Source: Thermococcus profundus (lineage in GTDB: Archaea > Methanobacteriota_B > Thermococci > Thermococcales > Thermococcaceae). Taken from it: a stretch of DNA of 64,000 nucleotides. How positions within the stretch are numbered: position 1 is the stretch's first letter; every line of letters begins with the position of its first letter. Where the stretch lies: positions 1,302,001 to 1,366,000 of the forward strand of contig NZ_CP014862.1 in assembly GCF_002214585.1 (NCBI RefSeq). The letters are read 5' to 3'. This document shows, one piece after another, positions 36,160 through 41,183 of this stretch. Both the position numbers and the translations under genes were made by a program. A model generated the notes under the pieces. That model was not told the DNA's origin. It made no database searches and was given only the letters and a program-made list of their open reading frames with translations.

Positions 36160-36555
36160 GGAGTACCACCACCTTATCTTCTGCTACCCTAACTTCCTTC
36201 AGTTCATCGAACTCCCTGCTATAAATCTTTTGCCCGTCCCAGTTGTAGATTCGAACCCCATCCCCCACGACAATGACAAGGCCCTTCGAGAAGGGAGCAC
36301 TTCTCTGACTTTTTCATCGAATTCAAGGGTTATCTCTTTCACCTCGCTCCTCGTTATCTCGATCCTTGTGTTCTTCGAAACCTTCATCGGATTTGGGTCT
36401 GCAAGGACGACCTTGAATGCTAGGGACTTTCCAAGGAGGTCTATCTCAACTGTCTCATCAGTCTTCACTTCCCTCCCAGTTAGTTTTGAACGGATGATCT
36501 CCTCAAAGCCGGACGGGAGTTCAACGTCGAAGAGGGGCTTGAGGACGAGGCGCAT
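36128..36555 (-). pseudogene. Hypothetical gene split by a one-base frameshift
   Basis: The ATG at 36555 opens a frame (MRLVLKPLFDVELPSGFEEI) that is coherent to about KVREVL (near 36300), then reads a low-quality tail to a TGA near 36199. From the same point another frame continues sensibly (APFSKGLVIVVGDGVRIYNW) to a TGA at 36128-36130. Adding one C to the CCC run (plus-strand GGG at 36293-36295) joins them into one roughly 143-aa protein. This is either a real inactivating or programmed shift or an assembly error. No family recognised. Confidence 0.7.
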
Positions 36556-36664
36556 GGTTCTCACTTATAGGGATAATGAGCAGAGCGATAATAAGGGTTT
36601 CCGAACCGAAACCGCTAAATATTCCGGCGTCTTACTTTCTCCAGTTTAATCGGGGGCGCGGGCG

Positions 36665-39600
36665 ATGAGCTACTGGGCGAAGACGTATGGTGAAGGAGAA
36701 GCGCATGGGGTGGCTGTGGATAAGAACGGAGATATTATCATAGTCGGACAAACTAAAGATGAGAATGCTTTTGTTGCCCGACTTAACAAGGGAGGGGACG
36801 TTAAGTGGTTCAAGATTTATGGTGGAAGCAAGCAGGACAGCTTCAACGACGTGAAGATAGCCCCAAACGGAGACATTATTGTCGCTGGATACACTAAAAG
36901 CTTTGGTGTTGGTATCTGGAATGCATGGGTTCTGAAGCTCGATAAAAACGGAAATGTGAAATGGCAGAAAACATACGGAGGAAAGAGCTGGGATGGGGCT
37001 CTGGCGGTTGGCATTGCTCCAAACGGGGACATTATTGTGGCAGGTTATACTTACAGCTTCGGCGCAAGTAGTGTTGACTTGAGTAAGAATGGACATGATC
37101 TACTAAAGAAATTCGCTCATGGGGGAGATTTTTGGGTTTTGAGGCTTGATGAGAATGGGAACGTTAAGTGGCAGAAGACTTACGGAGGAAGCGATTATGA
37201 TGGGGCTCACTCAGTTGCCATTGCTAACAATGGGGACATTATTGTAGCTGGAGGAACTTCAAGCTTTAGCGCTAGTAAGGTAGATGTTTGGGTTCTGAGG
37301 CTTGACAGCAAGGGGAACGTTAAATGGCAAAAAACTTACGGGGGAAGCGATTATGATAGTGCCTCCGCGGTTGCCATCACTGATGACGGGGGTATCATAG
37401 TAGCAGGCCACACCGAGAGCTTCGGCGCTGGCGGTAAAGATGTTTGGGTTTTGAGGCTTGATGAGAATGGGAACGTTAAGTGGCAGAAAACTTACGGAGG
37501 AACAAAGGACGACGAGGCCAACGCAGTCGCCATAGCATCCAACGGTGACATTATCGTAGCTGGAGGAACTTGGAGCTTCGGCACCGACAAGGAGAACGCT
37601 TGGATTTTGAGGCTTGATGAGAATGGGAACGTTAAGTGGCAGAAGACTTGCGGAGGAAGCGATGAGGATGATGCTCACGCGGTTGCTATCACCCCAAACG
37701 GGAACATTATCGTAGCCGGATGGACTGGCAGCTTCGGCGGTGTCTGGGTTCTTCGTCTCCCTCCAGATGGAAACCTTCCTGATTGTGACTTCTGCGGAGA
37801 TTCCCATGCACAGGTAACGGACACCAACGCAGAGGTAAGAGACACAAACTGCGAGGTTCTCAGTGGCATCCGAAAGTACCAAGTCGAAGTCGGGCTAATA
37901 CGGAAAAAGAAGAAGTGGCGCATTGAAAAAGCCACTCCTACAGTCAAAGGTTCACACGCCCGGATAAAAACCCTCCAAATAAAGCCAGAAACTCAGTACT
38001 ATCATCCCCTCCAAGAAGATGCTATAGAACCATCTACGTCTAAGGCCAAAAACATTAAACTTAACAAAACAGTCCACGTTGCTTCATTCCCCAAGGTATC
38101 TGTGGAGCTCAGAAGTATTCCGTATGTTTACGTGGAGGGCCTAAATTACCCGATAAAACTAACTGGACCAGGAGGAAAAACACTTAAAGATCGGACACTA
38201 TACGATATGGAGTTCAAAGAAAAAATTGGGCAGGCCGTTCTTAAGTTAATAAACAATGACACCTTCAGAGAGCTTATCGAACGTCTTGTTAATAAATACG
38301 GTGAGATAACCGAACTGGACATCAACTTTGCACCGTCAAACTTGAAGTTCAACGGATTCTCCGCGCTGTTAAAACAACCCTTCGGCCAAGTTTATAAATG
38401 GAACGTTAACCTGAAGCTGGGGAGTATCATCCTCCGGCCGAAGAAAGGAAACCAGGTTCTTTACCGGGAACCCCTCACACCCAACGAAATCCAAGAACTC
38501 AAAAACGCCTCACGTGAGCTAATGGAGCTAATGGACATCGCCAAAAACAGTGAAACCACAACTACAAAAATAACACCCCAACCAACTCATCAAAAATCAG
38601 CAATTCCACAAAACTCAGCAACGTCCATAACACCGGCCACCCCAGTAACTCCCTCTTCTGTCTCTTCCTATGTAAGCGTTACATCCTTCCCGGCTGAACT
38701 CCTCCAGTTCTACGAGCCCCTCGAAGAGCTTGGCAAAGGAGGCTTCGCCAAGGTTTACAAAGCAAGGAGGAAGAGGGACGGCGAGATAGTTGCGCTCAAA
38801 ATCCCCCTCAGCCTCGACGCGGCAACTGGCAAGTCCTTCCTGAGGGAGATTGAGAACTGGACTAAACTGAAGCACCCGAACATCGTCAGGGTTTACGACT
38901 ACAACATCCTCCCGGTTCCATTCTTTGAGATGGAATACTGCGAAGGCTCACTCGCACAGCTTCCCAAACCGCTCCCCCCGCGCGACGCCGCGCTCTTAAT
39001 CTTCAACATCGCCGAAGGTCTGGAGTACGCGCACTCCAAAGGTATAATCCACCGCGACCTTAAGCCTTCAAACATCCTCCTCAAGGGGGGAATTCCAAAG
39101 GTTTCGGACTGGGGATTGAGCAAGGTAATCGGAGAGTCCCGCTCCACCACGACCACAAGCTTTACAGCCCTCTACGCCGCCCCAGAACAGTTCAGCAAGT
39201 CACGCTTTGGCCCCACCGATCAGAGGACTGACATCTGGCAGCTGGGGATTATATTCTACGAGCTGGTAACGGGTAGGCTTCCCTTCGACAGTGAGGACCC
39301 CTTCGAATTGATGTCCATGATTATGATGGAAGATCCGGTCCCTCCCTCAGAGGTTAATCCAGAAGCGAAAGAGGTAGAGCCAGTAATCCTGAGAATGCTT
39401 GCTAAGCACAAGGAGGAGCGGTACGAGGACGTGGGAGAGCTTCAGATGGATTTGGCTGGTTATCTTGGCATAGAGTTCCGGCGGGAGTTGAGGAAGAGTA
39501 GGACGATGGGTGATAAGAGGCTGATCATTTACTATCTCAGCAACCTCCTCCTTATGAGCGTCAAGACTGGCAACTTGACCGGGGCCTACAAGTACTCGGA

Positions 39601-39757
39601 GGATTTTGCCAAGTTCATTGGTGGAAAGCTCGGCAATGAGTTTTCCTCGCTGGCGGAGCAGTTTAAACTTCGCCTTGAGGAGAGACTGGATATTCCCGTT
39701 GAATTGCTCGAAAAGACAGAGATACTCGTCCACAGGGTCATGGTGGACTACAAATAG
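36665..39757 (+). CDS. Seven-repeat beta-propeller fused to a Hanks-type Ser/Thr kinase
   Basis: The 1030-aa protein has seven repeats of about 50 aa at residues 1-375 (consensus YGG..D.A.AVAI...GDIIVAG, then WVLRLDENGNVKWQK), which should close a seven-bladed propeller. A middle domain (about 375-640), a Thr/Pro linker and a kinase domain at about 683-940 follow. Kinase residues are present: GKGGFAKV, Lys712, HRDLKPSN (Asp798), SDWG in place of DFG, and AAPEQF. A helical tail (about 945-1030) ends it. No signal peptide or membrane segment is visible, so both modules are probably cytoplasmic. Confidence 0.92.
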   Translation: MSYWAKTYGEGEAHGVAVDKNGDIIIVGQTKDENAFVARLNKGGDVKWFKIYGGSKQDSFNDVKIAPNGDIIVAGYTKSFGVGIWNAWVLKLDKNGNVKWQKTYGGKSWDGALAVGIAPNGDIIVAGYTYSFGASSVDLSKNGHDLLKKFAHGGDFWVLRLDENGNVKWQKTYGGSDYDGAHSVAIANNGDIIVAGGTSSFSASKVDVWVLRLDSKGNVKWQKTYGGSDYDSASAVAITDDGGIIVAGHTESFGAGGKDVWVLRLDENGNVKWQKTYGGTKDDEANAVAIASNGDIIVAGGTWSFGTDKENAWILRLDENGNVKWQKTCGGSDEDDAHAVAITPNGNIIVAGWTGSFGGVWVLRLPPDGNLPDCDFCGDSHAQVTDTNAEVRDTNCEVLSGIRKYQVEVGLIRKKKKWRIEKATPTVKGSHARIKTLQIKPETQYYHPLQEDAIEPSTSKAKNIKLNKTVHVASFPKVSVELRSIPYVYVEGLNYPIKLTGPGGKTLKDRTLYDMEFKEKIGQAVLKLINNDTFRELIERLVNKYGEITELDINFAPSNLKFNGFSALLKQPFGQVYKWNVNLKLGSIILRPKKGNQVLYREPLTPNEIQELKNASRELMELMDIAKNSETTTTKITPQPTHQKSAIPQNSATSITPATPVTPSSVSSYVSVTSFPAELLQFYEPLEELGKGGFAKVYKARRKRDGEIVALKIPLSLDAATGKSFLREIENWTKLKHPNIVRVYDYNILPVPFFEMEYCEGSLAQLPKPLPPRDAALLIFNIAEGLEYAHSKGIIHRDLKPSNILLKGGIPKVSDWGLSKVIGESRSTTTTSFTALYAAPEQFSKSRFGPTDQRTDIWQLGIIFYELVTGRLPFDSEDPFELMSMIMMEDPVPPSEVNPEAKEVEPVILRMLAKHKEERYEDVGELQMDLAGYLGIEFRRELRKSRTMGDKRLIIYYLSNLLLMSVKTGNLTGAYKYSEDFAKFIGGKLGNEFSSLAEQFKLRLEERLDIPVELLEKTEILVHRVMVDYK
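37131..37668 (+). repeat. 156-bp tandem direct repeats encoding propeller blades
   Basis: Within the kinase gene the DNA itself repeats with a 156-bp period (52 codons). A 46-base stretch at 37131-37176 is identical to 37443-37488, and about 40 bases of it recur from 37605. Such identity at synonymous sites implies recent blade duplication or gene conversion. Confidence 0.8.
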
Positions 39758-39794: not shown

Positions 39795-41183
39795 TTACCA
39801 GAGCCCTTCATCGTCCTTTTTCAATCTCCTCCAGCCCCAGAACTTGAGGTCGTCCTCTATTTCGAGAAGAGCCTCCCTGTCTATAGCCAATATTGTGTCG
39901 CCGAGTTCGTTGATGAAGTACTCATCTCCATCATTCTCGACCCGGTATACTGTCCCGTCGCTGTCATAAACGTGGCGGTAGCCGGAGAGGACGTCGCTTA
40001 TCTCTATGGTCTCGTGGTAGCTCTGGTTCAGATCCGCGTAGAAGTTCTCCATTATTCCCCTGTTGATCTCGTCGAACGTGGAGTGCACGATGGCCGAAAT
40101 CTCGGCGTTGTGCCTCCTCATGCTGGCCAGCTCCTTCTGGAATATCCTGTTCATCTCCATGTTCATCGCCTGCATGTGGACGATGTAGGCGTTCATCCTG
40201 TAGGTCTCAAACTGTGGAAGAGGTTTGACCGAGGAGGCGATGCTCTGGACGATCGCCCTGTCAGTCCCGTAGTGGAAGGAAGCACCAGCACTGACCACTG
40301 AGAAGAAACCAACGCTGTTGAACAGCCCGTAATAGTCTCCCCAGAGGTAGAGACCATCCACCACGGCCTCGAAGCCCTCGCCGTTAAAGCCTTGAGCGGG
40401 CATGCCGAGGCTCATCAGCATCAGCCTCATCACGTTCTCATCGTAGGTGAAGCTCGAGAACTCCTGCAGGGAACCGTTGAGGTAGGGACTTATCTTTTCT
40501 ATGAACTCCCTGCAGGAAAGGCTTGAGAGAGGAGGAATCGGCCCCGAGATGCTCCCAACGAGGAAGCCCTGGGTGTTGGAATAGGCCACCTCGGCCCTTC
40601 CAGCATATCCCTCATCCCACCTGACCTCGTAGAGCATCTCCGGAACGCCCCCAATCTCGAAGGGAATCTCCCTGACCTGGCTCCCCTCCGGGACGAGGAT
40701 GGTAAGTGCCAGCATGCCGCGGTAGTGGAGGGTTCTCCTCTCAAAGGGCATTCTGTCCTCGACGGGACTGAGGCTCTCAACAACCGACCCAAATGCGTCG
40801 AGGTACTCCTCAAGCCTTTCCGCAGGAGCCGTCATGAGGATCCCAACGTTCCCGGAGCGCCTCAACACCGTCACGAAGTCCACGCCGAGCATGTTATGGG
40901 CAAAGAACTCCGTTGATTTGCCCTCGAACTTCTCAACACGATTCCCATCGCCGAGACTGTCGATGATCCTTTCTCTCAGGAGTTCAAATTCTTCGTCGTT
41001 TCTCATAAAGTAGAGAACCAGTGAAGCCAGCCTGTCAGTCACTCTAATGCTCCGCCCCTCCACTTTCACCTCCCAGGGCTCGGGAAGCTCCATCGAGAAG
41101 CCGTAGAAGACGTTCTCGTACTTCAAGTTCCCCACCGTTTTAATGTATGCACTCAGAAATTTTAAGACTTGGTTTGAAGCCAT
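39795..41183 (-). CDS. Hypothetical protein, 462 aa
   Basis: No family recognised. There is no signal peptide or membrane helix. The N-terminal part (about 20-150) has a strand-rich pattern (YGFSMELPEPWEVKVEGRS) and the C-terminus ends in beta strands around HVYDSDGTVYRVENDGDEYF and INELGDTILAID. A helical region sits at about 340-400 (MNAYIVHMQAMNMEMNRIFQ). The ATG at 41183 has no clear Shine-Dalgarno sequence; a TATA-like GGATATATTG about 25-30 bases upstream suggests a leaderless or short-leader mRNA. It converges on the propeller-kinase gene. Confidence 0.65.
   Translation of the reverse strand: MASNQVLKFLSAYIKTVGNLKYENVFYGFSMELPEPWEVKVEGRSIRVTDRLASLVLYFMRNDEEFELLRERIIDSLGDGNRVEKFEGKSTEFFAHNMLGVDFVTVLRRSGNVGILMTAPAERLEEYLDAFGSVVESLSPVEDRMPFERRTLHYRGMLALTILVPEGSQVREIPFEIGGVPEMLYEVRWDEGYAGRAEVAYSNTQGFLVGSISGPIPPLSSLSCREFIEKISPYLNGSLQEFSSFTYDENVMRLMLMSLGMPAQGFNGEGFEAVVDGLYLWGDYYGLFNSVGFFSVVSAGASFHYGTDRAIVQSIASSVKPLPQFETYRMNAYIVHMQAMNMEMNRIFQKELASMRRHNAEISAIVHSTFDEINRGIMENFYADLNQSYHETIEISDVLSGYRHVYDSDGTVYRVENDGDEYFINELGDTILAIDREALLEIEDDLKFWGWRRLKKDDEGLW

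Follow-up and report, generated by a model that had tools for sequence, protein, structure and literature searches.

A propeller-fused kinase of Thermococcus profundus belongs to a relocated branch of the ESCRT-associated Ser/Thr kinase family

Introduction

What is a beta-propeller doing in front of a Hanks-type protein kinase in an archaeon, and does such a protein represent a signalling architecture of its own? The question is raised by a gene of Thermococcus profundus, located in a 64,000-nucleotide stretch of contig NZ_CP014862.1 (positions 1,302,001 to 1,366,000 of the forward strand), which we refer to as the window and whose numbering is used for its features. The original prediction, made from the sequence alone, described the product as a cytoplasmic seven-bladed propeller fused through a middle domain to a complete kinase, and suggested that it would be a distinct archaeal signalling architecture.

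A kinase termed STK has been described in the ‘Main’ clade of archaeal ESCRT loci (Makarova et al. 2024, mBio, PMC10936438). As presented in the available text of that paper, these STKs are typically membrane-bound proteins encoded in the ESCRT locus, with an N-terminal membrane segment and Ig-like repeats, and phosphorylation is proposed to be key for euryarchaeal ESCRT function; propellers are mentioned, in the same text, for Halo_adaptin proteins and eukaryotic coats only. Beyond this one, our search found no papers dealing with kinases of Thermococcales or with a propeller placed ahead of a kinase.

Results

Domain layout and predicted location

The gene and its parts are as follows.

36665..39757, + strand: propeller-kinase gene, 1030 amino acids, ATG start (open reading frame list, Pfam/NCBIfam, structure)
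36671..37777, + strand: seven-bladed, predicted cytosolic beta-propeller of the delta-60/CylK type, residues 3-371 (NCBIfam, AlphaFold2, Foldseek, phmmer, blade HMM)
37778..38089, + strand: cap/linker with a CDFC...CEVLSG motif, residues 372-475 (alignment, AlphaFold2)
38090..38557, + strand: rare alpha/beta module, residues 476-631, sitting where relatives have Ig-like module(s)
38558..38686, + strand: Thr/Pro/Ser-rich flexible linker, residues 632-674 (sequence, pLDDT near 31)
38711..39469, + strand: Hanks-type Ser/Thr kinase domain, residues 683-935, with DWG for DFG and a TTTTS-rich activation loop
39470..39754, + strand: all-helical tail, residues 936-1030, common to ESCRT-locus STKs (alignment, AlphaFold2)

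Neither a signal peptide nor, in a hydropathy scan, a membrane segment was found in the 1030-residue protein (highest value over 19 residues, 1.2), and the open frame (36665-39757) adds only five codons upstream of the ATG, too few to encode an overlooked signal peptide. Together, the low hydropathy and the short upstream frame support a cytoplasmic location, as judged from sequence, and so agree with the original placing of the propeller in the cytoplasm of a protein devoid of membrane segments. The domain order, with the propeller N-terminal to the kinase and no membrane segment, is indeed the reverse of that in PknD. AlphaFold2 modelled the full-length protein with a mean pLDDT of 70 and a pTM of 0.43, from an alignment that consisted of the window protein alone for the propeller and middle domain, and of the window protein plus one homologue (L059) for the tail.

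Seven blades of the delta-60/CylK family

The NCBIfam delta-60 repeat model TIGR02608 matches six stretches of the window protein (99.5 bits against a cut-off of 76.5), and a blade HMM, which was built from the propeller family with the window sequence in it and is therefore not independent, tiles exactly seven contiguous blades (residues 3-46, 47-98, 99-167, 168-219, 220-271, 272-323 and 324-371). AlphaFold2 places 27 blade strands, a seven-by-four pattern but for the N-terminal closing strand (residues 2-8), which is modelled as a helix at low confidence. The N-terminal SYWAKTYG is equivalent to the KWQKTYG strand of other blades and would close the ring, making closure very likely by sequence equivalence rather than by a confident model. 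The best Foldseek match in the PDB is CylK (about 400 columns; TM 0.48 when normalised to the target, a chain of 653 amino acids), which phmmer also finds with the propeller alone (E 3e-26) and whose propeller is seven-bladed by crystallography (PMC8916777). The window blades are members of the delta-60/CylK propeller family, and their number is well supported: the seven repeats of about 50 amino acids noticed originally correspond to seven blades by HMM, AlphaFold2 and the CylK fold match. The expectation of a closed seven-bladed propeller is thus borne out by the model for the blades, although not for the low-confidence closing strand.

A composite middle region

The middle region (residues ∼375-640) had been read as one domain resembling nothing recognizable. 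The lack of recognizable kinship stands, but the region is not a single domain, comprising the cap, the alpha/beta module and the linker listed above. Three cysteines of the cap (C374, C377, C396) are invariant in ten aligned relatives, and residues 371-480 are mostly disordered in the prediction (AlphaFold2 pLDDT 23-40). Folded alone by AlphaFold2, the alpha/beta module reaches a pLDDT of 81.7 and a pTM of 0.75; it has no Pfam match, and comparison of the middle domain with PDB sequences, PDB folds and viral folds gave no convincing match. Its carriers occupy three of the 115 genomes sampled from the phylum: the window protein, the ESCRT-locus kinase of genome G060, which has the module at its front (57% identity), and a lone 177-residue ORF in G021. 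Relatives have one or two copies of an Ig-like module between propeller and kinase, this middle module matching the Ig-like module of membrane STKs (hhalign probability 80, E 1.4e-5). An Ig-like identity for the window's own middle domain was ruled out (probability 0.2 against the Ig-like module).

The long unstructured linker between the front modules and the kinase fits recruitment more readily than direct allostery, and bears on one reading of the protein, a PknD-like sensor whose propeller would bind a small ligand or metal and switch the kinase allosterically. Propeller and kinase do share one chain, and Ca2+ is bound at the blade junctions of CylK, the closest propeller of known structure (PMC8916777); given this linker, however, and the opposite order of PknD, with its membrane segment and outside propeller, we consider such a sensor quite unlikely.

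A kinase with a complete catalytic set

Pfam Pkinase matches residues 683-920 (E 2.1e-47), and the glycine loop, VAIK lysine, alpha-C glutamate, HRD aspartate, asparagine and DFG aspartate form a complete set: G692, K712, E728, H796-R797-D798, K800, N803 and D815-x-G817 are invariant in comparison with 22 bacterial kinases and one archaeal kinase, as is the APE-like P840-E841. Lys712 and Asp798, on which the original call of a complete kinase was based, are thus both confirmed. Thr and Ser abound in the activation loop (TTTTS), where T828, T829, S832 and T834 are invariant in the alignment of relatives. SDWG does occupy the DFG position, but the change is confined to Trp for Phe, and loss of the motif was ruled out because the metal-binding, catalytic D815 is retained. 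Active kinases with Trp for Phe at this position include CK2. On these residues the kinase is most likely catalytically competent. PknB is the nearest solved kinase by both sequence and fold. In a sample of contigs picked by kinase motif, mostly holding bacterial kinases, no ORF joined a kinase to delta-60/CylK-type blades.

Kinship with the STK of ‘Main’ ESCRT loci

Strong matches to the window protein were confined, among 115 genomes of the phylum, to four genera of one family. A minimal ESCRT locus (L162 of genome G058) encodes arCOG08177-like, arCOG09748-like and ESCRT-III-like proteins, a 573-residue STK, Vps4 and PP2C; in such loci the AAA/Vps4_C ATPase, PP2C and kinases are confirmed by Pfam, and the arCOG and ESCRT-III labels were assigned by position, size and likeness to the T. 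profundus locus and to the description in PMC10936438. The window protein is 57% identical to this 573-residue STK over kinase and tail, and its kinase is 62-66% identical to those of membrane-bound STK members. The tail is modelled as helices only (AlphaFold2 pLDDT about 44-72); its PCI-like assignment in STKs comes from PMC10936438.

Across 61 congeneric genomes, 28 contain both the kinase (at least 365 bits covering kinase and tail, the edge-truncated G054 included) and Vps4-Main (at least 600 bits), five only the kinase, two only Vps4-Main and 26 neither (Fisher p 4.6e-10, uncorrected for kinship); the five kinase-only genomes are mostly fragmentary assemblies. Of the 28 genomes that carry both genes, 27 have such a kinase no more than 6 kb from Vps4. 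The sole exception is T. profundus itself, in which the window copy, the only kinase above the threshold, lies 457 kb from Vps4.

T. profundus encodes three paralogues with the same propeller type ahead of a kinase. In two of them, of receptor type (L039_7038 and L040_4205), a signal peptide precedes the propeller and a membrane segment separates it from the kinase. The third, L041_5157, is a cytosolic propeller kinase that lacks both, is 63% identical to the window protein over the propeller, and is encoded in the ESCRT locus of this genome (contig 1,791-1,823 kb), near Vps4 with one channel gene between; cytosolic propeller kinases are thus also found inside ESCRT loci. Among the neighbours of the ESCRT-locus propeller kinase, a gene for a channel with pentapeptide repeats and an Ion_trans_2 domain recurs (L041 7630-8751; also L045, L053, L056 and L058). 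These loci also hold a conserved cytosolic kinase (L041 14899-16869, L056 12372-14360, L058 12308-14293, L045 331-2316), the N-terminal part of which is helical and, in L056, weakly matches MIT (PF04212, E 0.0044), the ESCRT-III-binding domain of Vps4.

Exchange of front modules and relocation

The domain order of the window protein recurs in relatives: cytosolic propeller, middle module, kinase and tail are joined in a single ORF in at least seven of the 61 genomes of the genus. A quick IQ-TREE analysis of 51 kinase domains places the cytosolic propeller on several separate branches, which requires at least five state changes and therefore repeated exchange of front modules. The window kinase groups with L044, L046, L047, L048 and L051 (SH-aLRT 98), a clade of six whose members are all cytosolic propeller kinases and, judging by their flanks, all lie outside ESCRT loci; the clade is nested among kinases from ESCRT loci. 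We conclude that the window kinase represents a branch of the ESCRT-associated STK family that carries a propeller and has been relocated. The proposal of a stand-alone architecture is not supported, since kinase and tail are those of the ‘Main’ ESCRT-locus STK, and the N-terminal propeller is one among several interchangeable front modules of this kinase family.

Other rearrangements were observed in the family. In genome G020, one ORF (L050 57-4166, - strand) carries a propeller and two complete tandem kinase domains; in G060, a single ORF (L052 6091-8925, - strand) runs from a cytosolic propeller and an Ig-like module through the first part of a kinase N-lobe to pentapeptide repeats and an ion channel domain, and is apparently a recombinant of adjoining ESCRT-locus genes. 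Such patchiness and reshuffling, including this fusion of propeller, kinase fragment and channel, would also be expected if the window gene were a selfish or decaying duplicate, devoid of function and left by ongoing recombination among repeat-rich kinase genes. We regard this as very improbable, as the gene is a full ORF with every catalytic residue intact, and its kinase is 75-82% identical to the sister copies in other species, which argues for constraint.

The window gene is flanked by genes for endonuclease III and a small CDC48_2-like protein, both found across the genus, and in five related genomes the same place, marked by one or both of these conserved genes, has no kinase. The kinase was therefore gained here or lost elsewhere; given the tree, gain is more economical. 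The CDC48_2-like gene (36199-36564, - strand; divergent to the kinase gene) encodes a 121-residue stand-alone CDC48_2 domain protein (E 5.8e-10) that nearly all genomes of the genus share; in several of them its gene sits next to the one for endonuclease III, as it does in T. profundus. Directly downstream, a convergent gene (39795-41183, - strand) encodes a 462-residue protein with no convincing Pfam match.

All five sister kinases adjoin a gene for an AAA_14/DUF4143 or ATPase_2 type ATPase rather than ESCRT genes (L044 3158-4405, L047 9219-10472, L048 4048-5355, L046 2439-3782, L051 1-375). These neighbours may point to a role other than ESCRT. The relocated copy would then have been repurposed as a soluble kinase sensing a ligand or partner, unrelated to ESCRT and perhaps working with such ATPases or with DNA-repair or proteostasis neighbours, a reading with which the non-conserved site outside the ESCRT locus and a middle module unlike that of relatives are also consistent. 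On the other side, no AAA_14/DUF4143 or ATPase_2 gene lies beside the window copy itself, the window copy retains the helical tail, and genomes with relocated copies retain the Main Vps4 (the fragmentary G054 aside). Repurposing is, in our estimate, a possible but doubtful explanation.

Discussion

We lean, without great assurance, towards the view that the window gene encodes a soluble, competent Ser/Thr kinase, derived from a propeller-bearing ‘Main’ ESCRT STK by duplication and relocation, that acts in ESCRT-type remodelling. The cytosolic propeller and alpha/beta module would recruit client proteins, which the flexible Thr/Pro/Ser linker would allow the kinase to reach; the helical tail may oligomerise, or dock the protein onto partners of the ESCRT type; and phosphatases of the PP2C type, encoded in the ESCRT locus, could reverse the phosphorylation. 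In this way the phosphorylation state of soluble clients would be linked to membrane remodelling of the ESCRT type. The functional tie of the relocated copy to ESCRT is deduced from kinship, and the copy may have been repurposed. Against an ESCRT role, the window copy lacks three features of the published STKs, namely the locus, the membrane segment and the Ig-like module, because of which we do not class it as an ESCRT STK.

By analogy, soluble propeller kinases might serve more generally as client adaptors for archaeal ESCRT, the propeller picking, the kinase marking and the tail delivering the client, and swaps of front modules diversifying recognition; we put this forward tentatively and think it rather unlikely to hold as stated. 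In such a role the putative adaptor propeller would be likened to those of clathrin and COPI.

The window gene emerges as one modular version of a signalling system already known, not an isolated oddity. The soluble, propeller-bearing STK branch, with swappable front modules and several members per genome, provides specific genes for probing kinase recognition and for asking whether phosphorylation controls archaeal ESCRT, in an order, the Thermococcales, that is genetically tractable.

Among known systems, PknD of Mycobacterium tuberculosis likewise joins a Hanks-type kinase and a beta-propeller in one chain, but in reversed order (kinase, membrane segment, outside propeller) and with NHL-type blades. 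The catalytic domain of PknB is the closest solved counterpart of the kinase, although PknB has no propeller and its PASTA repeats lie outside the cell. CylK and the delta-60 repeats (TIGR02608) share the blade family and the seven blades; CylK, however, has no kinase: it is an alkylating enzyme whose N-terminal domain binds Ca2+. In comparison with the published ESCRT ‘Main’ STK, the window protein lacks the N-terminal membrane segment and the Ig-like (adaptin-appendage-like) repeat ahead of the kinase, has a cytosolic propeller together with the rare alpha/beta module, and is encoded outside the Vps4/ESCRT-III locus, 457 kb away; it shares with that family, many members of which adjoin Vps4 and PP2C, both the kinase subfamily and the C-terminal helical tail.
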